Of a stretch of 31,280 nt of DNA, positions 7,239-29,951 are shown piece after piece (the first letter of the stretch is position 1; every line of letters begins with the position of its first letter). The stretch lies in the IMG/VR virus record IMGVR_UViG_3300047386_000012, positions 1 through 31,280 of that record. One strand, written 5' to 3'. Under the pieces are notes generated by a model. That model worked only from the letters and a program-made list of their open reading frames with translations. It ran no database searches and was not told the origin of the DNA. Origin of the DNA: a virus. Both the position numbers and the translations under genes were made by a program.

Positions 7239-8150
7239 ATGGCTATCTCTCGCGCACAACTAGCGAAAGAGTTGGAACCTGGTCTCAACGCCTTGTTCGG
7301 TATGGAGTACAGTAGGTACGAAGACCAACATGCAGAGATTTACACAACAGAATCTTCTGATCGAGCATTCGAAGAGGAAGTGATGTTGAGTGGTTTCGGC
7401 GCAGCACCAACCAAGTCGGAAGGTTCTGCAATCAACTACGACGACGCAAACGAAGCGTATACTGCTCGTTATAACCACGAGACTATCGCGTTGGCATTCT
7501 CGATCACAGAAGAGGCTATCGAAGATAACCTTTATGATCGACTAGGCTCACGTTATACTCGTGCGTTGGCTCGGTCAATGGCTCACACAAAACAAGTTAA
7601 GGCCGCTGCGGTTCTTAACAACGCATTTACTGCTGGCGCATCTGCTGGTGGTGACGGTGTTGCGCTTTGTGCGACCAACCACCCACTTACATCAGGTGGG
7701 ACATTTGCCAACGAACCAACAACTGCGGCTGACTTGAACGAGACTTCTTTGGAAGACGCGTTGATCAGCATTGCAGGGTTTGTTGACGAGCGTGGTCTTA
7801 AAGTCGCGTTGCGCGGCACCAAGTTGGTCATCCCACGTCAACTGCAATTTGTTGCAGAGCGTTTGATGGTATCAAACTTGCGTGTTGGCACAGCCGACAA
7901 TGACACTAACGCTATCCGTTCAATGGGTATGTTGCCAAACGGTTACGCCGTTAACGACTTCCTAACGGACCCAGATGCGTTCTTCGTCATGACAGACGCG
8001 CCTCGTGGATTTATCCACTTCGAGCGTACGCCAATGACTACTGGCATGGAAGCAGACTTCGATACAGGTAACATGCGCTTCAAAGCGCGTGAGCGTTACT
8101 CGTTCGGTTTCTCAGACCCACGCGCAGTATTTGGTTCGCCAGGTGCATAA
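7239..8150 (+). CDS. Major capsid protein (Mu gpT-like, HK97 fold)
   Basis: A 303-residue protein. Features typical of the Mu gpT-like major head family: N-terminal SRAQLAKELEPGLNALFGME, ARYNHETIALAFSITEEAIE (residues about 74-93), ALCATNHPL near 143, LNETSLEDALISI, KLVIPRQLQFVAERLM (about 198-213), NDFLTDPDAFFVMTDAP and a final RERYSFGFSDPRAVFGSPGA. These correspond to the A-domain and spine of HK97-fold capsids. It has no obvious N-terminal delta domain; a separate scaffold gene is present. Strong AAGGAG ribosome site. A terminator follows directly, consistent with a highly expressed gene. Confidence 0.88.
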   Translation: MAISRAQLAKELEPGLNALFGMEYSRYEDQHAEIYTTESSDRAFEEEVMLSGFGAAPTKSEGSAINYDDANEAYTARYNHETIALAFSITEEAIEDNLYDRLGSRYTRALARSMAHTKQVKAAAVLNNAFTAGASAGGDGVALCATNHPLTSGGTFANEPTTAADLNETSLEDALISIAGFVDERGLKVALRGTKLVIPRQLQFVAERLMVSNLRVGTADNDTNAIRSMGMLPNGYAVNDFLTDPDAFFVMTDAPRGFIHFERTPMTTGMEADFDTGNMRFKARERYSFGFSDPRAVFGSPGA

Positions 8151-13538: not shown

Positions 13539-13973
13539 ATGGCCTTTACTGGTAACTTCATGTGCACGAGCTTTAAGAAGGAGCTTCTTGAGGCTGTTCA
13601 CAACTTTAAACTTTCAGGTGGTAGCACCTTTAATCTCGCGCTTTATACAAATAGCGCGTCTTTTGATGCCTCAACAACAGCGTACACCGCTTCAAACGAA
13701 GTATCTGGAACTGGGTACACTGCAAAGGGTGGTGCGCTTACTCGAGTTGATCCAAGCACAAGTGGTACAACAGCGTTAACTGATTTTGCTGATTTAACAT
13801 TTAGCACGGCGACAATCACTGCCCGTGGCGCGTTGATCTTTAACGATAGCGCGGCGGGTGATCCTTCGGTTGTGGTGCTGGACTTTGGTGCAGACAAAAC
13901 GTCTACCGCAGGTGACTTTACGATTGTATTCCCAACAGCGGACGCAAGTAACGCCATCATTCGGATAGCCTGA
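13539..13973 (+). CDS. Conserved beta-rich virion protein
   Basis: A 144-residue protein that I recall as very frequent in marine phage genomes. It starts MAFTGNFMCTSFKKELLEAV followed by a sheet-rich region with alternating small residues: FNLALYTNSASFDASTTAYT, TLTRVDPS-type segment, DFADLTFSTATITARGALIF, and VVLDFGADKTSTAGDFTIVF. No membrane helices. It probably forms a beta-sandwich in the tail or head surface. Its stop overlaps the start of the repeat protein gene, indicating coupled translation. Exact location in the virion is unknown. Confidence 0.7.
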   Translation: MAFTGNFMCTSFKKELLEAVHNFKLSGGSTFNLALYTNSASFDASTTAYTASNEVSGTGYTAKGGALTRVDPSTSGTTALTDFADLTFSTATITARGALIFNDSAAGDPSVVVLDFGADKTSTAGDFTIVFPTADASNAIIRIA

Positions 13974-14866
13974 TGGCAGACATTATCGTTCCAATTGGCG
14001 GTTGGTCCCGCTTCGGTTGGGGCGATATGCCGTGGGGTCAAACGGACCTTCCTAAAGCCACGGCATCTGTTGGTTCCGTTACTGTAGTCGCAGAAGCGAA
14101 CGCGCCCGTTACAGGATTATCTGCAACGGGTTCTGTTGGTTCTGTCACAGTAATCGCCGCAGCCAACACATCTGTAACTGGTGTATCTGGCGCGGGTGAA
14201 GTCGGTTCAACTACTGTTATTGCAGAAGCAAACGTTTCTCCAACTGGTGTCTCTGGTACTGGAAACGTTGGTTCTGTTACTGTTACAGCAGACGCAAATG
14301 CTCCCGTCACTGGTCTTGAGGCTACGGCGTCAGTCGGTTCTATTACAGTGGTTGCCGAGGCTAATGTGTCTCCGACTGGTCTTGAGGCTACAGGTCAAGT
14401 TGGCACTGCAACTGCTACCGCAGATGCGATAACCCCTGTCACGGGTTTGTCCGCAACAGGTTCCGTTGGTAGTGTCACTGTAGTAGCTGCGGCGGACGTA
14501 GATGTCACTGGACTTGAAGCCACATCTGGTCTTGGTAGTGTTACAGTAATTGCCCTAGCTAATGTTCCTGTCACGGGACTTGAAGCTACGGGTTCCGTTG
14601 GTAGTGTGACTGTTAACTTTGGAATGTCTGTATTCGTTACTGGCGTTGCAGGAACTGGAGCCGTTGGCAGTGTCACGACCACCGCTGATGCACCCGTATC
14701 TGTTACTGGTGTGACCGCCACGGGTATCGTTGGAACACCGCTAGTTTACGGACGTATTGTTCCAGATCAAAATCCGAGTTATACTCCCGAACAACCATCA
14801 CAATCCCCTGGTTGGACTGATGACAATCCATTGCAGTCACCAGGTTGGACCCGAATAGCAGCATAG
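13973..14866 (+). CDS. Tail protein built of ten 22-residue VGSVTV repeats
   Basis: A 297-residue protein. The first 27 residues contain WSRFGWGDMPWGQ, a GWG-type segment that resembles one in the nozzle-like protein at 19091. Residues 28-247 are ten contiguous repeats of exactly 22 residues, with consensus ATGSVGSVTV at the start, AEAN in the middle and VTGL/VTGV at the end; an eleventh copy is partial. The C-terminus has two QSPGWT units (residues about 275-296). Repeats of this length with alternating small and hydrophobic residues should build a beta-solenoid or fibre. It lies between virion proteins and the long tail fibre, so an adhesion or fibre role is likely. No charged catalytic residues are seen. 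Confidence 0.7.
   Translation: MADIIVPIGGWSRFGWGDMPWGQTDLPKATASVGSVTVVAEANAPVTGLSATGSVGSVTVIAAANTSVTGVSGAGEVGSTTVIAEANVSPTGVSGTGNVGSVTVTADANAPVTGLEATASVGSITVVAEANVSPTGLEATGQVGTATATADAITPVTGLSATGSVGSVTVVAAADVDVTGLEATSGLGSVTVIALANVPVTGLEATGSVGSVTVNFGMSVFVTGVAGTGAVGSVTTTADAPVSVTGVTATGIVGTPLVYGRIVPDQNPSYTPEQPSQSPGWTDDNPLQSPGWTRIAA
14054..14713 (+). repeat. Tandem repeat, ten units of 66 bp
   Basis: Ten units of exactly 66 bases, in frame, encode the 22-residue repeat. Units are diverged at DNA level (for example ggttccgttactgtagtc against ggttctgtcacagtaatc), mostly by synonymous changes, so the array is old or kept by selection, rather than newly expanded. Constant unit length argues for a structural repeat. 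Confidence 0.85.
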
Positions 14867-14875
14867 GATAGAAAC

Positions 14876-17800
14876 ATGCCTAGTACATATACATTAAACA
14901 ACGGTATCGAACTCATAGCTACTGGTGAACAGTCAGGCACATGGGGTGATACGACTAACACAAACCTTGAACTTTTGGATACGGCTCTTGATGGTCAGGT
15001 CACGGTGACTTTGGCTTCGGCGGGGACATCTGGTTCACCAAACACACTGCCTATTAGTGACGGTGCGGCATCAAATGGTCGTAACCGTATGGTTATTTTT
15101 GATGACAGCAGTGATCTGGGTGCAACAGCCTATGTGCAGTTGACGCCAAATGACGCTGAGAAGATTGTGTACATCCGTAACAGTCTGTCTGGTGATCGAA
15201 GCATTCTATTGTTCCAAGGCACTTACAGTGCATCAAACGATTATGAAGTTCCCGCTGGAAAAACAGCAGTTATTTTCTTTGATGGGGCGGGTTCTGGTGC
15301 GGTAGCGGCAAACGTTTTTAACAACGCCCATTTTGATGCATTGAACATTGTCGGAAATGTAGATGTTGGTGGTGATCTGACAGTAGACACAAACAGTTTG
15401 TTTGTGGATTCCACCAATAACGTGGTTCTTGCGGGTTCAACGTCTGCGACAAATAACGTGCGTCTTAACCAAAAACTTTCTACGGTCAGTGTTGGGGGTA
15501 ATTTATATGGTGGTGCCTCACACGTTTCATACTCTGGAACGAATGTTCAACCAGCATCTACTATTGATATTCAACGTTCTCGCGGAACTACTGATGGGGA
15601 TTATACAAAGGTTGAGGACGGCGACAGACTAGGTATTATTATTTTCCGTGGGGCAGATGGAGCGGGGTTTGAAGATTCTGCCGCGATTTCAGGTTATGTA
15701 GATGGATCGACAGATACCGATGATATGCCTGGACGTCTTGTTTTTGAAACATCTAACGATGGTGGTGTCACGCTAACTGAGCGTACCCGTATTGCTAGTG
15801 ATGGTACTCTTACCCACCGTTACGCGGCAGTGTTTAACGAAGACGGTGGGGACTATGATTTTCGCGTTGAAGGCGACACGCAGCAATATTTAATTATGGC
15901 AGACGCGAGTTCGGACCGCGTAGGCATCAATCAACAAATTCCATACGCACAATTGCAAATAAACGGCGACATGCGTTTGGGTTCTACTGACTTAGCCACT
16001 GATGATGACGTAGAATATACAATTTCGTCAGGTGGTCAGCTTGTAATTCATTCGAATGACAGCGGTGCAGATGCTAGTTTTGTAGCTTTGAGTTTACGCA
16101 CAGGCGCAAGTGGTGGAAACACTAGCGCAATTATTGATTTTTATATCAATGACGACGAGAAAATGCGCCTGAATAATAGTGGCTATTTGGGTTTGGGGAC
16201 TAACAATCCACTGCAAGAATTGCACGTTTTTAACGAGGGCACTCTAGGAACATCTGCCGATAACGCAGACATTCGCGTCCAAGGTAATAATGGCGGGGCG
16301 GGTTACATGGATGTTTTCCATGGCCCCACTGCTATGGGAATTTATGGTGCGTCTACCTCTCCATTCCAACTCGCTTGGAACTCCATTGATCGTTTAAACA
16401 TAAACGGCAATGAAACTATTTTCCACGACACTGGCGACGATTATAACTTTAGGATCGAATCTTCAGGCTATGAAAATATGTTTTTCATGGATTCTACCAA
16501 TTCAAAAATTGGGATTCGGACCAACTCACCTGATGCGGTTCTCGACGTTTATGGATCGTTACGTTATTTCAACGTAAGACCCGGTTATTCCTCCACTGTA
16601 GGTTCAGGTACGAGTGCAAATTGGTGGAAGCTAGGTAGAGCGTCTTCTTTATTTGGTTCAAGAAGCCTTAAAATCGTCATACTTGGTACGCAATCGTATG
16701 GTGCTGGCGGTAATATCGGTGGTGAAACTACCATTCTGTTCCGTGGTAACAATGCTACGACAACGATTGATGGTACATTTTGGTCTGAAACTCAAGGAAA
16801 CGGTCACATTTCGAGCGTTGCGTGGAAACAAACAGGAACTAGCGACGAATTTGACATATGGGTAAATTGGACTTCTACGTTTGCTGGGGTAGATATATAT
16901 GTTGATACCCAAGCCACTTGGGAATTTGGGGTCTTAGACACAGGCTCCGAAACTACTCCAGCAGGGGCAACAACGATTTCTCCCAAGAAATTTACTTATA
17001 TGGGTACATCCCAGACTATAGCTCAAGTAAGTAATGAAGTTGTAATTAACAATGGCGAGGTTGACATTGATTTCAGAGTGGCTTCAGCAGATTACACCTA
17101 TGCTCTGGCAGTGGATGCCGCTACGAACCAAGTTTTAATCGGAACAAGCGACACAACGCATTCAATTAGCTCATACTCCCTGATCGTAGGTGTTGAGAGT
17201 GGCACGATGAAGCCGCATGTGTTGATTGACGGCACGTTTACTCAACAAGACATAAACACCCACAGCTTCATCAACCTAAGTGACCATAATTTTGGTATTG
17301 GCGGCGGTAACTTTAACACAGGGTCCACGGCTGATGACCTGTATCTCTTTGCATATGAAGGTGTTGGTCGTGGTATTCGTTTCTCCACGACACTTGATGG
17401 ATCAACAGACCGCTCTGAAGACAATGCCAACTGGACTACACGAGGTTTTATTAACGCTTCCACAGGTTATTGGGGCATCGGGAACTTTGCGCATAGCTCC
17501 CCCCCCTCAAGACTTCTTCATGTTAAAGGAGCCGTGGGCGACTCCACTCCCCCTCTTTTTATTGAAGCAAGTAGCGACAGCTTTTCAGGCAGCAACTTTA
17601 ACTGGGCTTCAAATGCAATAGCTTCTGGTATGCCGAATACGGCGACTAAACGGTTTGTTCATGTAATTGGTCAAGGTGAAAGTACGGGTCAAGCAGCAGT
17701 ATTTGGTTATGCCGCTGGTACAAACGACAACGAAAAAGCCTTTACACTTGGCCTGTATAATAAAAACGACGTTATTCTGGGGAACATGAACGGTTACGTC

Positions 17801-18217
17801 ACCAAACAATACCAGCCGTTCTTCTATGCTAAAACAACTAACACTGGTGACGGAAACACAGCAAACCCATATCAATTCCAAAACGTAGTACACAATATCG
17901 GCGGTATGTTTGTGACCACTGGAACAGGCGCATTCGAACGGTTTGTTGCTCCGATTGATGGAGTTTATGCTATTACAGTTCAACCTGGATATAAACAAAC
18001 AGGCGTGGATTTTTCTAGTCGCCTAAGAATCAATGGATCAGAGTTTACAGATTTGGTGAGACTAATCAGTACGGTTGACCCCGATAGTCATTCGGGAGCG
18101 GCAAGTACAGTTGTAATCAAATTAAGTGAAGACGACTACGTTGATGTAGTTCCAGGTTTTACCCCGTACCACTGTAACGACGTTTATAACTTTTTCTCAG
18201 CGCACTTGTTGTCATAA
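14876..18217 (+). CDS. Long tail fibre protein
   Basis: A 1113-residue protein. Residues 1-160 contain STYTLNNGIELIATGEQSGT with GTWGDTTNTNLELLDTALDG, the N-terminal virion-attachment region I recall from marine phage fibres. The middle contains three similar blocks spaced about 200 residues apart (near residues 320-352, 516-546 and 724-755), each with DFRV/NFRI followed by a hydrophobic strand, VDAS/DST, and VGI or IGI. Fibre-type phrases such as YLGLGTNNPLQELHVF and KIGIRTNSPDAVLDV occur between them. The last 130 residues (GAFERFVAPIDGVYAITVQP and following) look like a C1q/TNF-like jelly-roll, a plausible receptor-binding head. Binds host surface. No intramolecular chaperone is visible. 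Confidence 0.85.
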   Translation: MPSTYTLNNGIELIATGEQSGTWGDTTNTNLELLDTALDGQVTVTLASAGTSGSPNTLPISDGAASNGRNRMVIFDDSSDLGATAYVQLTPNDAEKIVYIRNSLSGDRSILLFQGTYSASNDYEVPAGKTAVIFFDGAGSGAVAANVFNNAHFDALNIVGNVDVGGDLTVDTNSLFVDSTNNVVLAGSTSATNNVRLNQKLSTVSVGGNLYGGASHVSYSGTNVQPASTIDIQRSRGTTDGDYTKVEDGDRLGIIIFRGADGAGFEDSAAISGYVDGSTDTDDMPGRLVFETSNDGGVTLTERTRIASDGTLTHRYAAVFNEDGGDYDFRVEGDTQQYLIMADASSDRVGINQQIPYAQLQINGDMRLGSTDLATDDDVEYTISSGGQLVIHSNDSGADASFVALSLRTGASGGNTSAIIDFYINDDEKMRLNNSGYLGLGTNNPLQELHVFNEGTLGTSADNADIRVQGNNGGAGYMDVFHGPTAMGIYGASTSPFQLAWNSIDRLNINGNETIFHDTGDDYNFRIESSGYENMFFMDSTNSKIGIRTNSPDAVLDVYGSLRYFNVRPGYSSTVGSGTSANWWKLGRASSLFGSRSLKIVILGTQSYGAGGNIGGETTILFRGNNATTTIDGTFWSETQGNGHISSVAWKQTGTSDEFDIWVNWTSTFAGVDIYVDTQATWEFGVLDTGSETTPAGATTISPKKFTYMGTSQTIAQVSNEVVINNGEVDIDFRVASADYTYALAVDAATNQVLIGTSDTTHSISSYSLIVGVESGTMKPHVLIDGTFTQQDINTHSFINLSDHNFGIGGGNFNTGSTADDLYLFAYEGVGRGIRFSTTLDGSTDRSEDNANWTTRGFINASTGYWGIGNFAHSSPPSRLLHVKGAVGDSTPPLFIEASSDSFSGSNFNWASNAIASGMPNTATKRFVHVIGQGESTGQAAVFGYAAGTNDNEKAFTLGLYNKNDVILGNMNGYVTKQYQPFFYAKTTNTGDGNTANPYQFQNVVHNIGGMFVTTGTGAFERFVAPIDGVYAITVQPGYKQTGVDFSSRLRINGSEFTDLVRLISTVDPDSHSGAASTVVIKLSEDDYVDVVPGFTPYHCNDVYNFFSAHLLS

Positions 18218-21725: not shown

Positions 21726-22513
21726 TGTCATTATTAGGTGCACTAGGTGGATTAGTTGGATTTGCGATGGGTGGCCCTGCGGGGGCCGCGCTTGGTTCTG
21801 GCATTGGGTCTCTTGCATCTGGCGGTGATATAGGTGACGCCCTGAAATCAGGCATGTTAGGCTTTGTTGGTGGCGGAGCTATGGCTGGTATGGGGGCCGC
21901 AGGTGGTCAAGGTATTGGCTCGTTGCTTACTTCAATGGGTCTTGGGGGCCAAGCAGCAACAACAATGAATCCACTGGCACGAATTGGTTCGGCTATGACT
22001 GGCGGCAATGCAGCCGCAGGTGGCGCAGCAATGAACCAGATGAGCAATATGGCTCGTGCGGGTAGCGCAATGGGTGGCGCAGGTGGCGGTGGTCTAACCA
22101 ACCTGTTTAACCTTGGTCCACAGGGCGGTTCGATCTTGTCCAACCCGATGATCCAAGCAATTGCACTACAGGCTTTAGAGCCAAAAGAAGTTAAGATGAC
22201 TACACCATTACAAGATCGGCAGTTAGCTACGGGGGAAAGACTACCGAGTTATCGTGGAACACAGGCTAACGACGTTCGCCGTCGTAACTTTGCTATGGGC
22301 GGTTATGTAGAAGGGCCAGGTACGGGCACGAGTGACTCGATTCCTGCACAGATTTATCAAAACGGTATGCCAGTACAGGAAGCTGCGCTTTCTGACGGCG
22401 AGTTTGTATTGCGAGAAAGAGATGTCAACGCTATAGGCGGCGGAGATCCTGGTGTTGGAGCAGCGCGGTTATACGCCATGCAACGCCAATTTGACCAAGG
22501 AGGTATGGCATGA
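21725..22513 (+). CDS. Putative internal (ejection) protein, Gly/Ala-rich, with GTSDSIPA-SDGEFVL motif
   Basis: A 262-residue protein. Residues 1-140 are Gly/Ala/Met-rich hydrophobic with glycine-zipper character (GGLVGFAMGGPAGAALGSGI, GGGAMAGMGAAGGQGIGSLL), like proteins that insert into membranes. Residues 190-262 hold AMGGYVEGPGTGTSDSIPA followed by ALSDGEFVLRERDVNAIGGG. A G-TGTSDSIPA...LSxGE(F/Y)V motif is also known from the C-termini of many tape-measure proteins of long-tailed phages. The AMGGYV segment matches the GG-x-V motif in small genes here. First of four large genes that fit an ejection set that crosses the host envelope with the DNA. Confidence 0.65.
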   Translation: MSLLGALGGLVGFAMGGPAGAALGSGIGSLASGGDIGDALKSGMLGFVGGGAMAGMGAAGGQGIGSLLTSMGLGGQAATTMNPLARIGSAMTGGNAAAGGAAMNQMSNMARAGSAMGGAGGGGLTNLFNLGPQGGSILSNPMIQAIALQALEPKEVKMTTPLQDRQLATGERLPSYRGTQANDVRRRNFAMGGYVEGPGTGTSDSIPAQIYQNGMPVQEAALSDGEFVLRERDVNAIGGGDPGVGAARLYAMQRQFDQGGMA

Positions 22514-24507
22514 GCGACACTGATGACACAGGTATGGGCCGCAGTGCGAACTTTATTCCCGAATACCAAGAACGATTTCTAAAAGATTTACTCGCCAACG
22601 TCTACAATGTTGAGCTTGATGACGAAGGTAACCCGCTCCTCGATGAAAGTGGGCAACCGATTGTTACGGGTATTGCCGCTGACTCTCCGTTGTACGGTAC
22701 ACCTGTACTGGATGCCGATGGCAACCAGATGTTCGAAACAGACCCGACCACAGGGGAGCAACTACTAGATTTCCGTGGGCAACCAATTCCTATGGTCGAA
22801 GGGGGTGTTCGTCGTCCTGACGTAGCACCAATGACCCCGAACCAGCTAGAAGCCATACGTCTGGCGGAAGAGGGCGTGGGGGCCTTTGGTCCCATGTTCG
22901 ATCAGGCGCAAGCAGCGTTTGGTGGTTTTGAGTTTAACGAAGACGGTTCAGTAAAAACAGACGCAGAAGGCAACCCAATTCGTTCGGGAGCCATTGGTCA
23001 GGTTGGTGAGGGTGCAGGTGCCGTAGGTGAGGGCGTTACAGAGTTACGCGGAACCACGGGCCTTTATGATACAGCCACACGTCGAGCGGCAACGGATCCA
23101 ATATTCTCGGACTTCAAAGAAGATGTAATCGGGGACACCGCAACAGATGTGGGTACAGCAAGTACCTCTATAGGCAGTGCCGCAACAGGTGGGGCCGCTG
23201 GTATACGCAGTGCCGCCGCAGGTGCGGACATTCTTGGACAGGCTGGTACAGCGCAGCAAGGTATGCGTGACGCAGGTGCGGGTATCGCGGGTCAGGTCGG
23301 AGCGGCACAGACTGGTGTAGACGTAGCGGCACAACGTGCCCGTCAAGCGTCGGCACAAGCGCAGCGTGATCTGTCGGGTGCAGGAGCCTTTGGTTTGGGA
23401 GCCGCCGCAGAGGGCATTAGCCGTCTAGACGACACCACTGGGGCGTTTGATCCACAGGGTATTGGCGCGTTTATGAATCAGTATGAGGATGCAGCCGTAC
23501 AACAGGCCATCCAAGACATCGCTCGAGCAGGGCAGATGCAAAGAAACGAGCTTGGTGCACAGGCCGTAGGCGCGGGAGCCTTTGGTGGATCTCGTGAGGC
23601 GGTAGCGCAGCAGGAACTCGGACGGAATATTCTAGAGCAGCAGGGTCGCACCGCAGCAGGAATGCGTCAGGCAGGGTTTGAGAGTGCCGCGCAACGTGCA
23701 CAATCAGCCTTCGAAGCACAACAGGGCCGTGGTCAAACAGCCGCGCAGCTTCGTGGTCAGCTTGGTCAGGCGGGTGCAGGTACGGCATTAAATGCAGCAG
23801 AGGCCGCAGGTAGACTGGGGCTATCCGCAGAGCAGCTTGCACAGACAGGATCTTTGCAGGGTGGTCAGCTTGGGTTGTCAGGTCAAACCAATCTAGCGAA
23901 TATCCTGCAACAAGCAGGGCAGATGGGTATATCAGCGGAAGAAGCTGCGGCACAGTTGGGTATCAGCGCGGAGCAAGCAGCCGCTGGAATGCAAATGCAA
24001 GGTGCAGGAGCGCAAGCGGATCTATCTATGGGTCTAGCGGGTCTACGGGGCACAGGCTTCGAGATGTCGCAGAACCTTGGTCAGTCTGCTTTCGAGGATC
24101 AGATGCGCCGTGGTCAGAACGCTTCACAGATATTTGGTCAGCTTGGTCAGGGCCTTGGCTCACTGGCGGGTCAGCAAACAGACATCGGTGTGCGTCAGGC
24201 TGCGTTGGGCGAAGCTGCACAGCAAGCCAACCAGAGCGATGTCAATTCCCTATTCAACATCGGAGCCTTGGAACAGGGTCAGATGCAATCAGAGTACGAT
24301 GTACAGCGTCAGGCAGATATCGAAGAAGCATACGAGCCATACCAACGGTTCAACTACATGTCCGACATTTTCCGAGGTGTACCTTCTACTCAAAGTTCAC
24401 TAACCGTACAAAGTGTGCCAACACCAAGCCCCGTGTCCAATATTATTGGTATGGCGCAGGGTCTTCAGGGTTATCAAAACGCTGGTGGCGGTGGGATATT
24501 CGGATAA
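22510..24507 (+). CDS. Putative internal virion (ejection) protein, Ala/Gln/Gly-rich
   Basis: A 665-residue protein. Residues 1-95 hold three D-x-D/E-G-N-P type segments (DDEGNPLLDESGQPI, DADGNQMFETDPTTGEQ, NEDGSVKTDAEGNPI). The region from about 200 to 600 is an almost continuous Ala/Gln/Gly helix-repeat zone (for example AQRARQASAQAQRDLSGAGA, AAQLGISAEQAAAGMQMQGA), like internal core proteins that form channels. The C-terminus (YEPYQRFNYMSDIFRGVPST) is more structured. Overlap with the previous gene is 4 bases and a GGAGG ribosome site is present. The exact place in the core is unknown. Confidence 0.65.
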   Translation: MSDTDDTGMGRSANFIPEYQERFLKDLLANVYNVELDDEGNPLLDESGQPIVTGIAADSPLYGTPVLDADGNQMFETDPTTGEQLLDFRGQPIPMVEGGVRRPDVAPMTPNQLEAIRLAEEGVGAFGPMFDQAQAAFGGFEFNEDGSVKTDAEGNPIRSGAIGQVGEGAGAVGEGVTELRGTTGLYDTATRRAATDPIFSDFKEDVIGDTATDVGTASTSIGSAATGGAAGIRSAAAGADILGQAGTAQQGMRDAGAGIAGQVGAAQTGVDVAAQRARQASAQAQRDLSGAGAFGLGAAAEGISRLDDTTGAFDPQGIGAFMNQYEDAAVQQAIQDIARAGQMQRNELGAQAVGAGAFGGSREAVAQQELGRNILEQQGRTAAGMRQAGFESAAQRAQSAFEAQQGRGQTAAQLRGQLGQAGAGTALNAAEAAGRLGLSAEQLAQTGSLQGGQLGLSGQTNLANILQQAGQMGISAEEAAAQLGISAEQAAAGMQMQGAGAQADLSMGLAGLRGTGFEMSQNLGQSAFEDQMRRGQNASQIFGQLGQGLGSLAGQQTDIGVRQAALGEAAQQANQSDVNSLFNIGALEQGQMQSEYDVQRQADIEEAYEPYQRFNYMSDIFRGVPSTQSSLTVQSVPTPSPVSNIIGMAQGLQGYQNAGGGGIFG

Positions 24508-24518
24508 GGGTGTAGTCG

Positions 24519-25802
24519 ATGGAACAAAACGTATTCAACCGCAAACTCTTCAAGCGTAAGTCCGATGCAGCAAGTAAGACCGCTGCTCGGGACAAGCTGC
24601 GTTCGATGGGTGGGATCATGGCATCCTCGGAGCCTCTGCTTCAAGAGGCGATGAAAGCGGTACAGGGTGCGCCTACACCACAGATCGACATACAAGGTAT
24701 TATGCAAGCACAGAAACGGATGGGTCCAATGCCCTCCGCTCCGATGCCGCAGGTTGCCCCGCAGATGCCACAAATGCAGCAGCCGCAAATGCCGCCGCAA
24801 CCCGCACCTCCGCCACAAGCACCAGCGCAACCCGCGCCTCCACAGGGTATGAACCCGATGCAAAAGCCTATGGGTTTGAACATCGGTGGTCGCCCGATGG
24901 ACCGCAGACAGGAGTTGGCAAACTACTTGGGGGCAGCAACAGGACCGATGCCGTCGGTTGATATACGCCGTCAGGCAGGATCTGTTGTACAACAGCCTGA
25001 AGTAGACATGGATGCCATCACACCTGAACGTGCTATTGAGTTGACTAGCGCAGCGCAGAGCGGGAAGTTTCCTGTAAACCTGCGTCCGTTTACGGCTGAA
25101 ACCGCAGGTAGTGTAGAAAACGCGCAGTTGTTGAACGACAAAGCCGAGCAGATTGCAGCGGCAATGACAGATCCAAACCTAGATGATGAGGATCGATCTC
25201 GTAACTTACTTGCTGCATTAGGCGGTGATGCGTCTGCATCAAACGTAAAGAAAGCCTTGGCGGATACCTCCGAACAGGTGTTCGGTAAGAAGGTAGACCG
25301 TGAAGCTAAGATCGACGCTATGAACGATGCTATCACAGGCTTTGCTATTGCCGCAGGAACAAGCCCACGCGCCTCAAAGAACATTGCCAACGGCATGTTG
25401 GTCGGGTTGAAGTCAATGAAAGAGACGGAGCAAGGGCGTATCAACACAGAAAACGCTATGGCGCTTGCCGCAGCCAAGGCAGCAGCCAAAGGCACAGGGT
25501 CCGACGGCACATATAACAAGCTATATCAGAAGGCGATTGAGAAAATCATGACGCGACCTGATGAGTTTGGCATCTTTGTTGACGAGGATGATCCAGCCGC
25601 ATTGGATTCCGCATCTAATCAAATTACCACACTCGCTGACCGTATTGCACGAGCACAGGCAGGTGGAGGTCCCGCACCCAGCACCACGCAACCTATGACT
25701 GATATTGTTACTATCGATACTCAAGAAGCGTTTGACGCGTTGCCTCCTGGGTCTCAGTATATAGATAAAGCTGATGGGATTACTTATACTAAACCAACTT
25801 GA
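24519..25802 (+). CDS. Putative internal virion protein, Pro/Met/Gln-rich
   Basis: A 427-residue protein. Residues 1-55 (NRKLFKRKSDAASKTAARDK) are basic and helical; 60-125 are Pro/Met/Gln-rich (MPQVAPQMPQMQQPQMPPQP), which is likely unstructured; the C-terminal 260 residues are helical and contain LTSAAQSGKFPVNLRPFTAE, LDDEDRSRNLLAALGGDASA, and a terminal TIDTQEAFDALPPGSQYIDK, an extended element. I recall QEAFDALPPGSxYxD(K/P)-type endings as frequent in phage internal proteins. Located between two larger ejection candidates, so a core component is likely. Confidence 0.6.
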   Translation: MEQNVFNRKLFKRKSDAASKTAARDKLRSMGGIMASSEPLLQEAMKAVQGAPTPQIDIQGIMQAQKRMGPMPSAPMPQVAPQMPQMQQPQMPPQPAPPPQAPAQPAPPQGMNPMQKPMGLNIGGRPMDRRQELANYLGAATGPMPSVDIRRQAGSVVQQPEVDMDAITPERAIELTSAAQSGKFPVNLRPFTAETAGSVENAQLLNDKAEQIAAAMTDPNLDDEDRSRNLLAALGGDASASNVKKALADTSEQVFGKKVDREAKIDAMNDAITGFAIAAGTSPRASKNIANGMLVGLKSMKETEQGRINTENAMALAAAKAAAKGTGSDGTYNKLYQKAIEKIMTRPDEFGIFVDEDDPAALDSASNQITTLADRIARAQAGGGPAPSTTQPMTDIVTIDTQEAFDALPPGSQYIDKADGITYTKPT

Positions 25803-25817
25803 TAGAGGATAACCCAC

Positions 25818-28800
25818 ATGGCAAATCGTTTTGGTGGCATTCCTGTCGAGCAAGAACAACCCACAGCAAATCGCTTTGGTGGTATTCCTGTTAACCAACC
25901 TCCAAAAGAAAAAGTCGCAGAAGACGAAGGCGTTCTACAAGAGTTTGCAGAGGGCGTTGGCTCTGGTCTGATTGGTATTGGTCAAGGTATCGGGGAACTC
26001 GTAGCTTCGGGCATCGATCTTGTTGCCGATACAGACTACGCGGACGCGGTTAGTAACGCGGGGGAGGCCACCCGTGACTATCTAGGCTTGGATCCCACAG
26101 GTTTTGTGGGCAAAGGCGCAGAGATCATAACCCAGTTTGTTATTCCAGGTGTAGGTGTGGCTGGCATGGTATCTAAGGCAGGTAAGGCGGCACGTCTTGC
26201 TCGAGGTGCCACAGGTCCGATGACACGATCACAACGCTTTGGTCAGGCTGCGAAGGAGCTTGCCGCAGCGGGAGCCGTAGACGCAGCCGTAGCTAACGAC
26301 GGGACAACTACTGTCGGTGATTTTTTTGATGGTGGGCCTACTGCGACCAACCAAGAGTTGGGACTATCGGGTCGGGAAGAGGCGCTTCGTCGTCTAGGTA
26401 ACAAGTTTAAAGTTGGCACAGAAGCCGCGTTGCTTGGTGGTGTGGCACAGGGTGTGTTGTCTGGATTAGGTGTAGGCGCACAGAAAGCTGCTCAGACGCA
26501 AACGGGACAGGCCGTGGGTCGAGCGGTTGGAGAGTCCCAGCCTGTGCAAGCAGGTAAGGGTTTGGTCAATCGTACCCGTGAGTATCTCAAGAATGCAGAA
26601 CGCCGTCGTGTGTTTGGTGTAAATCCAGGTGAAGCAGACATGGGTCGGGGCGAACAGTTTATTGCTGACGCCTTGGGATCGTTACGCTACCGCTCCTATC
26701 TACCAGAAGAAATGGCAACTGAACGTCTGTTGGTGCAGGGTAAAGTGCAGCCATATATTAAACGTGCCGAGGTCACACTGAACAAGCTCGAGAGAAACAT
26801 CGACAATGCGATTGGTAAGATGGGCAAGGAAGTGGATAGCGAAGTCGAACGTCGAATGATCTTCGACAATATCGAAGAGTTCCTGACCAACCCAGACGCT
26901 GAGACTAAGAAAAAGTTTTTGTCCAAGTTACCTTCGAACATTCGGAGTGATGTGCAAAGCATGCGTCAACAGGTCAACGACCTAAGTGAAGGCGTATTGA
27001 ACAGTAACTTTTTAAAAGAAAATAATTTTGTTGATAAGGCCAGTGGTCGTGCCGTTAAAGATGTGATCAACGAAAACATAAACTCGTACCTCCGTCGCCG
27101 TTACCGCGTATTCGAAGACAAGACGTATACTCCAACAGGCGAACAGCTAAACATAGCCACCAAAGAGTTTCAGAAGGATAAAAAATCTGTCCAGTCCGAA
27201 CTAACCAAGATGGCTCGGGGTGATGCAGAAGGGTTGTTTACCGATGCAGAGTTAACGCGTATTGGTGCTCAACGTCTAGGGGCGGGGGACCAACAGCGTA
27301 TTGTCATTGAGGGTAAGGTTACAGACGAAGCTGCTCGACTTGCTCGAGATAGTTTTCTTGGACGCAATCGACTGCGTAATAGATCCAACGCCAAACTAAG
27401 CGGAGGCCGTGTAGCAGAAAACCGTTTGGACACGGGGATGTTTATGGAGCGTAAGTATCTACCCAAGTACCAAAGAGAATTGCTTGGAGAGATCGATGAC
27501 CCGAGAGAAGCGTTCATCGGTACAGTAGCGGATCTCGCACAATTCAAAGCTGTGGATGAATATTTTGGTAACCTGAAAACCATGGCGCAAGCCAACGATG
27601 GGTTTGGTAAATTCTTTATCGATCCTACTAGCATGACCCCACTACAACAAAAACAAATGCTCGATAGTGGGCAGTACGTTCAGCTTGGTAGTGCAAGAGG
27701 TCGAAGCACCCTACGAGGTGAAGCAACAGATGAGCTAGATGAGGCCGTAGACCGTTCGGGTTGGGGTTCTTTGCATGGGTACATTGTGCCAGAGCGCATC
27801 TACAAAGACTTGACCCAGACAGTGTTAGCGGAAGATGGGTTTGGATCGACGGCTATCCGAGGCGTGTGGGACACGTTCCTCCGAGGCAAAGGTATTTCTC
27901 AGTATTCCAAGACTGTTCTGTCGCCTGTCACGCAGGTTCGTAACTTTACCACGGCATCCTTGTTTGCTTTGAGCCAAGGCAATATTGGACGTGGTATGAA
28001 GGGTAGCCTTGGGGACTCTATGAAGATGACGTTTAGGCAGATGTTTGAGAAGGTCCCTGAAGACGAGGTACTTGACGAGCTTGCTGACTTGCAGCGTCGA
28101 GGCATTATCGGAACCCAAACTGAGCTTCGAGAAATTCAAGACATGATCAACAAGGGCATCGGGTACTCGACCCGTGGACCTAAAGGATTGTCGGAGGCGT
28201 TAGGCGGAGAAGCTGGACGCAAACTCGCGGACACAAAACTGGCTCGGACTGTGGGCAAGGGCACCAAGATGTTCGAAGACGCCTATCAAAACTCAGACGA
28301 CTTTTGGAAGATTTACAACTATCAGTTCGAAACAAACAAACTGCGTAACGCGTTGCGCGAAATGAACCCTGTGGACCAATATAAATATTTGACCAAGGGC
28401 CAAGACTTGAACCCACAGATGCGTCGGCAGATTATTTCTGACCCATCCAAGATGGATGAATTGCTGAAAGATCGAGCCGCACAAATCGTACGGGATACCG
28501 TACCAAACTATAACAAAGCTCCTGAGTTAATCAAAGCTGCGCGTAAGTTGCCTGTTGGTAACTTCATCACCTTCCCGTATGAAATCTTCCGCACTGGTGG
28601 CAACACAATCCGTCAGGCTATCGAAGAGATGAACCCCGCAAATGCGGAGGGTATTCGCAACATCGGACGCCGTCGTATGGCTGGAGCTATCGGTACGTTT
28701 GGTGTTATGCCAGCCGCTGTGGCAAATTTTGGATACGCGGCATCAGGCGTAAGCCGAGACGAGATGAAGGCATACCAACGCTCCTTCTCTGCACCATGGG

Positions 28801-29951
28801 AAAAGAACGCGGTGCTTGTTCCGATTGGTCGGGATGATGACGGCAATCTACAGTACGTCAACTTCAGTACCACCAACCCATATGATTCTATTATCTCTAT
28901 GTTTAACGCTGCAATCAACGAGGCGGACGAAGGATATCGTCAGGGTAAATCAGCAGGTGAGATTACACTACGGGCAGGGTTTGAAACGCTCAAAGATTTC
29001 TTCGAACCTTTCTTGAGCCAGTCCATTGTGACCGAGGCATTGTTGGATGTGACAGCCCGAGGCGGTAAGACAAGCACAGGAGCGCAAGTCTACAACCCAC
29101 AAGACAGTACGGGGGACATTCTCGGAAAGAGTTTTGCTCACGTTCTAGAGGGCATTGTACCAAACGTAGTTCCTGCGGAGATCAAAAACTTGAACCCTGC
29201 AAATATGCAGTTTGAACCTAGCAGATTTGCTCGTGGCGTTGTCGGATCAATGGCACCAGGTGTTATAAATCCAAAGGACAAACTAGGGAGAGAGCGCAAC
29301 CTGTCTGAGGAAATGTTCCGCGTCTTTACTGGTGTTACGCCCATGCAGTTCGATCCTGAGTTTGCATTGCGGATTAACGCAGGACGATTGCAACGTGCCC
29401 AGACTGACGCCAAACGTATTTTCAACAGTGTGATTGACGATGCCAACCTGACGCCAGATCAAATGATTAGCGCGTATCGCAGGGCCAATGACCGTAAGCG
29501 CGTGGTTGATGAGCAATACTTCCAAGTCATCGAGGATCTACAGACACTTGGCATGAGCAAAGGTCAGATCCGTCGTTTGTTGAAAGAAAATAAAATTGGT
29601 GGGGCAGACCAAATTATGCGGGGTCGCTTCGAACCATTCAAACTAAGTGATGACGCTCGAGGCAAGATGCGTAGAGCAGGAACCTTCGACATCTACAAGC
29701 AAACACGAAAACCGTTGCGTGACATATATAAAGACTTGCGTGGAACTAAGTTGACCCGTGACGAGGAACCTGCACCTCGACCCGCACCTTCAGCTAATCG
29801 GTTCGGTGGCAACCCCGTTCAACTACCCGCTCCACCACAGTCAACTCCGATACCTCGGCCTTCAGCTAATCGGTTCGGTGGCACCCCTGTTCAACAGGTA
29901 GACCCACGGCTGCTCCCTGATCCTCGGACCAGAGAGTTACTAAAACCTTAA
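25818..29951 (+). CDS. Large internal (ejection) protein with ANRFGG-x-PV motifs at both ends
   Basis: A 1377-residue protein, the largest here. Two motifs, ANRFGGIPV at residues 2-10 and 17-25, open it; two more, ANRFGGNPV and ANRFGGTPV, lie at about 1326-1334 and 1350-1358. Residues 40-135 are Gly/Ala-rich hydrophobic (GVGSGLIGIGQGIGELVASG, VIPGVGVAGMVSKAGKAAR), possibly membrane-inserting. Long helical parts follow (VSELTKM-like helices, EVERRMIFDNIEEFL), and a conserved GKGISQYSKTVLSPVTQVRN segment with FTTASLFALSQGNIG lies near 690-730. No lytic transglycosylase signature is seen. Size and place fit a T7 gp16-like ejection protein by role, not by sequence. Confidence 0.7.
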   Translation: MANRFGGIPVEQEQPTANRFGGIPVNQPPKEKVAEDEGVLQEFAEGVGSGLIGIGQGIGELVASGIDLVADTDYADAVSNAGEATRDYLGLDPTGFVGKGAEIITQFVIPGVGVAGMVSKAGKAARLARGATGPMTRSQRFGQAAKELAAAGAVDAAVANDGTTTVGDFFDGGPTATNQELGLSGREEALRRLGNKFKVGTEAALLGGVAQGVLSGLGVGAQKAAQTQTGQAVGRAVGESQPVQAGKGLVNRTREYLKNAERRRVFGVNPGEADMGRGEQFIADALGSLRYRSYLPEEMATERLLVQGKVQPYIKRAEVTLNKLERNIDNAIGKMGKEVDSEVERRMIFDNIEEFLTNPDAETKKKFLSKLPSNIRSDVQSMRQQVNDLSEGVLNSNFLKENNFVDKASGRAVKDVINENINSYLRRRYRVFEDKTYTPTGEQLNIATKEFQKDKKSVQSELTKMARGDAEGLFTDAELTRIGAQRLGAGDQQRIVIEGKVTDEAARLARDSFLGRNRLRNRSNAKLSGGRVAENRLDTGMFMERKYLPKYQRELLGEIDDPREAFIGTVADLAQFKAVDEYFGNLKTMAQANDGFGKFFIDPTSMTPLQQKQMLDSGQYVQLGSARGRSTLRGEATDELDEAVDRSGWGSLHGYIVPERIYKDLTQTVLAEDGFGSTAIRGVWDTFLRGKGISQYSKTVLSPVTQVRNFTTASLFALSQGNIGRGMKGSLGDSMKMTFRQMFEKVPEDEVLDELADLQRRGIIGTQTELREIQDMINKGIGYSTRGPKGLSEALGGEAGRKLADTKLARTVGKGTKMFEDAYQNSDDFWKIYNYQFETNKLRNALREMNPVDQYKYLTKGQDLNPQMRRQIISDPSKMDELLKDRAAQIVRDTVPNYNKAPELIKAARKLPVGNFITFPYEIFRTGGNTIRQAIEEMNPANAEGIRNIGRRRMAGAIGTFGVMPAAVANFGYAASGVSRDEMKAYQRSFSAPWEKNAVLVPIGRDDDGNLQYVNFSTTNPYDSIISMFNAAINEADEGYRQGKSAGEITLRAGFETLKDFFEPFLSQSIVTEALLDVTARGGKTSTGAQVYNPQDSTGDILGKSFAHVLEGIVPNVVPAEIKNLNPANMQFEPSRFARGVVGSMAPGVINPKDKLGRERNLSEEMFRVFTGVTPMQFDPEFALRINAGRLQRAQTDAKRIFNSVIDDANLTPDQMISAYRRANDRKRVVDEQYFQVIEDLQTLGMSKGQIRRLLKENKIGGADQIMRGRFEPFKLSDDARGKMRRAGTFDIYKQTRKPLRDIYKDLRGTKLTRDEEPAPRPAPSANRFGGNPVQLPAPPQSTPIPRPSANRFGGTPVQQVDPRLLPDPRTRELLKP
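25821..25892 (+). repeat. N-terminal ANRFGG-x-PV motif pair
   Basis: Two copies of ANRFGGIPV, 45 bases apart start to start, at the very start of the 1377-residue protein. Synonymous changes (cgt/cgc, ggc/ggt, gtc/gtt) differ between them, so the peptide rather than the DNA is conserved. Confidence 0.85.
29790..29891 (+). repeat. C-terminal SANRFGG-x-PV motif pair
   Basis: Two copies of SANRFGG-x-PV start 72 bases apart in a Pro-rich C-terminal tail. The stretch tcagctaatcggttcggtgg is identical in both copies, with few differences after it, so this pair looks like a more recent duplication than the N-terminal pair. Confidence 0.85.
29948..29951. other. Shared TTAA at convergent stop codons
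   Basis: TTAA provides TAA (29949-29951) for the plus-strand ejection protein and TAA on the minus strand (29950-29948) for the small acidic gene. The two operons meet tail to tail with a 4-base overlap. No hairpin with a U-tract is visible within about 100 bases on either side. Confidence 0.85.

Follow-up and report, generated by a model that had tools for sequence, protein, structure and literature searches.

The window analysed here, that is, the whole stretch of 31,280 bases, is the entire IMG/VR virus record IMGVR_UViG_3300047386_000012. It encodes a putative large virion protein of 1377 residues, which carries short repeated peptides, referred to below as tags, at both of its ends. Comparison of sequences suggests, with a probability of roughly 0.8, that by these peptides the large protein docks onto a C-terminal module of its neighbour, the protein encoded directly upstream, which is probably ejected. 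Tags stand in pairs at the two ends. Their class goes with the final ~35 residues of the upstream protein; it follows neither the body of that protein nor the phylogeny of the large protein. The same pairings of tag and module recur in unrelated phages. The features concerned are as follows.

25818 to 29951, plus strand: 1377-residue putative large virion protein, tagged at its N- and C-terminal ends (open reading frame (ORF) and translation; matches given below)
25821 to 25847, plus strand: N-terminal tag copy 1, ANRFGGIPV, residues 2-10
25866 to 25892, plus strand: N-terminal tag copy 2, ANRFGGIPV, residues 17-25
29793 to 29819, plus strand: C-terminal tag copy 1, ANRFGGNPV, residues 1326-1334
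29865 to 29891, plus strand: C-terminal tag copy 2, ANRFGGTPV, residues 1350-1358
24519 to 25802, plus strand: 427-residue protein directly upstream, the proposed carrier of the tag receptor; its putative ejection role is suggested by its position
25701 to 25799, plus strand: C-terminal receptor module (...TIDTQEAFDALPPGSQYIDKADGITYTKPT), a predicted beta-alpha-beta-beta mini-fold (covariation with tag class; modelled as described below)

Four copies of one peptide in the 1377-residue protein

As was noted in the preliminary description of this DNA, the peptide ANRFGGxPV occurs four times in the protein, twice at each end, and the C-terminal copies lie in a Pro-rich tail. It is absent from the rest of the protein: in six frames of the 31,280 bases, NRFG is restricted to these four sites. 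The number of copies expected in a composition-matched protein of equal length is 7e-7. The two N-terminal copies are identical at 9 of 9 residues and show three synonymous differences; that this pair differs synonymously had been pointed out. N- and C-terminal copies share 8 of 9 residues and differ at 4-5 synonymous positions, and therefore the likeness of the two ends is kept at the peptide level. The two C-terminal copies also share 8 of 9 residues, with one synonymous difference and a changed codon at x; they may be a recent duplication. The coordinates given in the preliminary description stop at the last tag (29891); the gene runs to 29951.

Homology is the basis for placing this protein in the virion. 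It weakly matches phrog_22602, "virion structural protein" (PHROG; E 1.2e-15, residues 879-1021), and it has a distant relative (22.5% identity) in Cellulophaga phage phi18:3, whose annotation comes from tandem mass spectrometry of virions.

Paired ends in relatives

A profile scan for relatives gave 42 loci, at which the ends of the large proteins were read. Most relatives have a repeated peptide at the N-terminal end and the same or a similar peptide in the C-terminal tail, and the peptide itself varies by phage: NRFGG, NRFGD, LFGVPV, NPFLS, NPYIK, FVPIPV, FVPSPV, YTPPPIV, IVDPF and GLSxTPP were found. In L003, with 86% identity in the core, NRFGD is present at all four sites. RFGG reappears in L119 and L122, which are 38% identical to the window protein. 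At 38 loci, no tag patterns were seen in other ORFs of at least 60 residues.

The likeness of the two ends within a protein was scored as the best 6-mer match with BLOSUM62, after removal of end-cut proteins and near-duplicates (from 30 to 27). The sum over the 27 nonredundant full-length proteins was 714, and the maximum of 100,000 permutations was 627; the mean score was 26.4 for own ends versus 19.2 in mismatched pairs. Matched ends, with a score of at least 20 and a match also visible by eye, are present in 20 of the 27. Loss of the motif from homologues with intact ends, which the preliminary description had named as evidence against its idea, does occur, but in these 20 proteins another peptide has taken the place of the motif and is once more alike at the two ends. 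In viral contigs ANRFGGxPV gave six stretches, two on L001 and L002 and four internal or due to chance; RFGG-type tags otherwise surfaced only in L119 and L122 and through the receptor scan described below.

The tags are exchanged between close relatives. The cores of L096/L114 (NPFLS) and L097/L105 (FTPIPV at the C-terminal end) are ~99% identical, yet near the C-terminal end ~95 bp have been substituted as a block, with nearly the same sequence on either side; the N-terminal ends of L097 and L105 are off the contigs. L101 (NPYIK) and L125 (NPFLS) are 94% identical and differ in parallel at both ends, and L110 and L123, 96% identical, differ at their C-terminal ends. The core tree does not group the classes, each of which turns up at several points (FG at four, NPF at four, FVP at four, DPF at three and GLS at two), and the C-tag classes require 12 changes over 21 proteins. 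Three close relatives of one another, L010, L011 and L017, which are 25% identical to the window protein, have LLxGLG-like tags together with a module AKExGASNDxIRxxLIxxGxxPxDYGF; their relative L013 has a different tag and a different module.

Two proteins have mismatched ends: L100 (439-4569; LFGVPV and NPFLS) and L112 (77-4267; TIFGDE and SFSTPST). The C-terminal end of L100 is also that of L128 (99.6% core identity), and L130 has that of L112. L100 and L112 are possibly transitional forms or assembly chimeras. In L008 and L113 the large protein begins with a helical-looking segment (DLMNALRKADSAGNEADAKALAAMIRRE and QLRKALPRAKAAGDTAAVNSILRQLR, respectively) and not with repeated tags; the upstream protein of L008 terminates in repeated VSNLTP.

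Covariation with the C-terminal module of the upstream protein

The module comprises the last ~35 residues of the directly upstream protein, and among 30 upstream proteins its type goes with the tag class as follows.

FG-type tags: TQEEYDALPPGTxY[IV]D...
FVPxPV tags: AANxAAKxAGxxxYTxxGxxFxVQ
NP[FY]LS tags: EAxKLEPxRRxEILKQATExGVDxKGL
IVDPF tags: [ED][ED]LTKYY...
GLSxTPP tags: YDASGxPFYSTDGVNYVDAQGxPY

L109, L116 and L127 show a weak likeness to the FVP pair, and L008, L106 and L113 belong to no class.

The N-terminal tags were compared with the C-terminal 40 residues of the upstream protein at 27 loci (30 before the near-duplicates L001, L096 and L122 were dropped). With core identity controlled, the partial Mantel r between N tag and module was 0.336, a value reached in 0 of 10,000 permutations; for the rest of the upstream protein it was 0.078 (2114 of 10,000). 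The nearest neighbour had the same N-tag class in 23 of 23 cases by module, in 7 of 23 by upstream body and in 10 of 23 by core, the single-member classes L008, L113, L106 and L109 being excluded from this count. The C-terminal tags behave in the same way. Their partial r with the module was 0.404 (0 of 10,000), and with the upstream body -0.025 (6304 of 10,000); the nearest neighbour shared the C-tag class in 18 of 20 cases by module and in 7 of 20 by either body or core. Both misses among the 20 involve L100. This test left out L106, L127, L008 and L113 (no C tag), L126 and L117 (no C-terminal end) and L112 and L101 (upstream protein too short), and the nearest-neighbour count also L109. All independent pairs on the tree are concordant (4/4, 3/3 and 4/4), numbers too small for significance.

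The C tags lie ~4 kb from the module, past a core with a different phylogeny. Motif and domain thus covary independently of the rest of both proteins, which is the mark of an exchangeable docking pair. Of the partners proposed in the preliminary description, another ejection protein is well supported by this covariation, and the C-terminal ~35 residues of the 24519-25802 product would be the partner module.

The same pairings in unrelated phages

NPFDQFD repeats occur at the N-terminal ends of phage proteins, and they were the starting point of a tag-first scan. The pattern gave at least 120 stretches; 80 loci were read, and the motif was mostly near an N-terminal end, often in two copies. When loci with less than 350 nt upstream and repeated upstream ends were dropped, 73 distinct loci were left. 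The pattern F..K[YF][GK] was found in the last 60 residues of the upstream ORF at 67 of these 73 loci, versus 3 of 846 other ORFs; for a stricter KYG pattern the counts were 60 of 73 and 1 of 846. Four of the six misses (L169, L174, L185, L190) are one kind of ORF with a single, accidental-looking motif, and the others are L173 and L202. In L202, a KYG module gene 1.5 kb upstream of the NPFDQFD gene is the one strict background match. An extra ORF of ~200 residues separates the two genes there, and the pairing persists.

A receptor-first scan with [YF]DALPxGxx[YF]xDP gave 42 loci, 33 of them distinct and 30 with a downstream gene; L259, L280 and L284, which have none, were dropped. Tags of the form RFxGxPV (F) or WxxAP (W) stand at the start of the downstream gene behind all 30 receptors, 29 read from an ATG and one from a GTG start, and by eye at least 24 of the 30 loci have two or more copies. 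Since single matches to the loose W and F patterns are common in other ORFs (52/290 and 43/290), weight is placed on repetition and on the sub-code: DxDGxxYxKP receptors go with F tags (8/9) and DPxGxxRxKP receptors with W tags (20/21). Receptor subtype thus fits tag type in 28 of 30 (Fisher 1.8e-5 for the table 8/1/1/19, before the GTG case was added; the subtype of L277 was assigned by eye). In the window, YIDKADGITYTKPT with RFGGIPV agrees with the first kind of receptor, and NRFGGIPV as such occurs in L292.

Scans with the FVP and IVDPF modules (8 and 9 loci) gave three (L302, L304, L305) and one (L314) new gene-end loci, all four with the predicted tag; the remaining loci were contigs known already (5 and 2), other contexts (3) or unparsed (3). 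Behind other C-terminal modules, three copies of PxGFE[IV]V are present in Alcaligenes phage QDWS535 and two of DYAxLIAKHGG in podovirus ctNMl277. In the annotated phage collection, tblastn found nothing for the NPFDQFD repeat nor for the NPF-module peptide, and a Pfam search with eight module peptides gave only matches below the curated cut-offs. In other phages NPFDQFD, RFxGxPV and W tags are mainly at the N-terminal end only, and the module is still upstream.

The C-terminal ends of NPFDQFD- and W-tagged proteins (L133, L137, L139, L153, L172, L274, L276, L295) have a recurrent N.NA[LM]AR, with the variants NALAR, NAMAR, NALAPQ and NRMAR. This might be a further terminal tag with its own partner.

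Structure models

AlphaFold2 was run on read-through fusions of receptor module and tag. The FG-type module was modelled as a beta-alpha-beta-beta mini-fold, with a predicted local distance difference test (pLDDT) score of 88-89 for the block, and the KYG-type module as three helices with pLDDT 80-87 over the first 30 residues. In Foldseek searches against the PDB, one module model gave nothing with E <1 and the other no match.

Comparison with known systems

Of the 29 records matched by the receptor-bearing protein of L291, many are gp20 of P22-like phages; the protein also matches phrog_2534, "released from the phage upon host infection". Homology to known ejection proteins holds for the receptor proteins of both L291 and L271, which are unrelated to the window's 427-residue protein. 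Among Lederbergviruses, the C-terminal tail of gp20 and the N-terminal part of gp16 differ together between P22, the Sf6 type (Sf6, SE1, VSe13) and Sf101. In Sf101, the gp20-like protein ends in a KYG-type module and the gp16-like protein has NPFAQLE and NPFAQIE at residues 153-181, NPF-like motifs having been searched for after the module was seen.

The specificity of gp16 for gp20 is already known genetically. In the sections of PMC10883804 cited here, P22 with Sf6 gene 16 alone or Sf6 gene 20 alone forms no plaques, whereas P22 with both does; Sf6 gp16 alone is still incorporated into the P22 particle; and gp20 that lacks its last 33 residues is nonfunctional. Its authors inferred that an interaction between gp16 and gp20 is required (PMC10883804). 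The P22/Sf6 pair thus resembles the window pair in its adjacent genes, in the need for a cognate pair (PMC10883804) and in the relation of the L291 receptor protein to gp20; it differs in having no repeated tag. In T7, the N-terminal region of gp16, which is the largest ejection protein, confers stability on the flexible C-termini of gp15, its partner (PMC8954989), a similar contact. Unlike the window protein, it is described as a long "molecular tape", with no exchangeable short tags and no C-terminal tag in the sections of PMC8954989 cited. The P22/Sf6 hybrids and the T7 contact together favour a contact needed after packaging.

A possible reversed polarity, in which a small domain-like segment opens the downstream protein and a short tail closes the upstream one, was observed at L316 (2110-5402), L321 (1601-4821), L323 (1070-4314), L297 (1352-5428), L318 (2625-5971) and L320 (2754-5488). 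Examples of the segments are MKVTANGKTFNFPDG... in P22 gp16 and MPKFEITAPDGRLFEV... in ctXG6705, and of the tails NFSSLWGD, GSWGIREIK and SKSGIKFTVE. At these loci plug and socket have possibly exchanged places.

Exchangeable docking pairs are known elsewhere. Docking domains of polyketide synthases and nonribosomal peptide synthetases form exchangeable pairs of C- and N-terminal ends that set the order of consecutive proteins, and these pairs include small beta-rich domains with short linear motifs. The machinery is different, and in the phages the tags come in duplicate and recur at the far end of the partner. Short terminal peptides on internal cargo are known also as encapsulin cargo-loading peptides and as T4 capsid targeting sequences; in the present phages the tag class does not follow the shell protein and covaries with the C-terminal end of the upstream protein. 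At least one tagged protein, that of L262, has ART-PolyVal and ddrB-ParB domains, as in polyvalent proteins, which are thought to be packaged and injected (PMC5512222). In the sections of PMC5512222 cited, that group is defined with no reference to terminal tags, and "NPF", "tandem" and "linear motif" are absent from the main text. No description of these motifs, of a tag/module code in phage ejection proteins, or of tags at both ends of one protein was found in the open-licence literature that was searched.

Alternative explanations

Module and N tags are only ~100 bp apart, and comparison of L114 with L105/L097 shows a block replaced between nearly identical flanks. The upstream C-terminal end and the downstream N-terminal end might therefore be swapped as one block with no functional contact. 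This linkage-only explanation is largely refuted by the C-tag test, because the distant C tags follow the module too; the recurrence of the same pairings between unrelated proteins and the separation of module and tagged gene in L202 also stand against it, and it is considered very unlikely. Loading of the protein into the head by way of the shell or a scaffold, in the manner of the T4 and encapsulin peptides, would suit the tags, which share with many loading peptides a terminal position, flexibility, richness in Pro and repetition. The head shell was rejected as the class-specific partner: the major capsid protein, found in five of the 22 records searched, is 91-94% identical to that of the window, and the five have five different tag classes. 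Moreover, covariation is with the C-terminus of the neighbour, and Sf6 gp16 is incorporated into P22 virions even when its cognate gp20 is missing (sections of PMC10883804). Such targeting is considered very unlikely.

The match between the two ends within a protein might also mean that N and C tags bind each other or self-assemble, the module covarying for another reason. This would leave the covariation with the upstream module unexplained, and elsewhere the tags are mainly at the N-terminal end with the module upstream regardless; self-binding is highly improbable. The preliminary description had also considered protease sites. Recognition by a prohead protease that trims both ends would agree with the location at the extreme ends and with P22 gp7, which loses 20 N-terminal residues according to a sequence-record note. 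However, no sequence is kept across phages: the peptides are wholly different between near-identical phages, show no conserved cleavage consensus, come in pairs and covary with the C-terminal module of the neighbour, and this idea can hardly be maintained.

Several observations weigh against docking of the tags to the upstream module. A matched C-terminal copy is absent in 7 of the 27 proteins (L008, L100, L106, L112, L113, L116, L127), and L100 combines FG N tags and an FG module with NPFLS C tags. The cultured relatives HTVC027P and 023Pt_psg01 (24-25% identical) have no tag repeats, nor have the named phages vB_Pun_Y3 and phi18:3. An FG-like module is present in Siovirus, P12053L and CRP-4, where the neighbour protein lacks an FG repeat; no tag repeats were found in SIO1, ICBM1, P12053L, CRP-4, RHph_I3_18, Mwe-JY13, PfAn1, Mae-JY35 or ctXG6705. 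L261 and L273 are exceptions to the sub-code. The tag classes and the KYG regular expression were set after the data had been seen; the Mantel test is class-free. In the modelled fusions the domain folds, but the tag regions have pLDDT 49-67 and no docked pose of the tag is seen. The 427-residue protein has no match in PHROG or Pfam, so that its ejection role is read from its position. Finally, the polarity in P22 and Sf6 seems reversed, with the small domain on the N-terminal end of gp16 and the short tail on gp20, and the incompatibility is not mapped to the facing ends of these proteins in the sections of PMC10883804 cited.

Proposed docking and its meaning

In the docking model, each tag, a short linear motif present in several copies, would bind the small C-terminal domain of the upstream 427-residue protein, which is probably an ejection protein. 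The presence of several tags suggests multivalency: the large protein might be held via both ends by several copies of the upstream protein. The contact would be needed for the ejected conduit to assemble or work, and not for packaging as such, because in the P22/Sf6 case a mismatched gp16 is taken up into the virion and yet is nonfunctional. N tags and socket, ~100 bp apart at the gene junction, could be exchanged together, whereas the C tags must follow separately, which would account for the occasional protein with mismatched ends, such as L100.

At least eight types of tag/module pair were seen. On balance, these lean toward a widespread and diversifying plug-and-socket code in tailed phages, in which small exchangeable domains and matching peptide tags sit where one ejection protein meets the next, and also on injected cargo such as polyvalent proteins. 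Where related phages infect the same cell, such a code might keep the conduit and cargo of each homotypic, and new injected proteins might be recruited by gain of a tag. It would provide a rule, readable from sequence, for the pairing of ejection proteins in phages in which most internal proteins lack annotation, and tags would flag injected cargo proteins in metagenomes. It would also help explain why ejection genes evolve as mosaics and why gp16 and gp20 of P22 and Sf6 are incompatible. The long-standing question of mutual recognition among internal proteins would become directly testable with short peptides.

Gene neighbourhood

The arrangement of an ejection pair is present in the window: two adjacent late genes, 24519-25802 and 25818-29951, with the larger product encoded downstream. 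Further features are listed below.

22510 to 24507, plus strand: 665-residue protein of the same cluster, with a weak match to phrog_4287, "DNA ejection protein" (E 2.3e-4)
7239 to 8150: capsid protein, upstream of the tagged gene
downstream, opposite strand: family-A DNA polymerase fragment

A 297-residue protein (13973-14866) consists mostly of ~23-residue repeats (VGSVTV.A.AN..VTGL.AT) and has no match in PHROG or Pfam. It is followed by a tail-fibre-like protein of 1113 residues (14876-18217), with a C1q-like match near its C-terminal end slightly below the Pfam cut-off. The 427-residue protein diverges faster than its neighbours: between the window and L003 its identity is 56%, versus 86% for the core of the large protein and 76%, 73% and 82% for the other proteins of the cluster.

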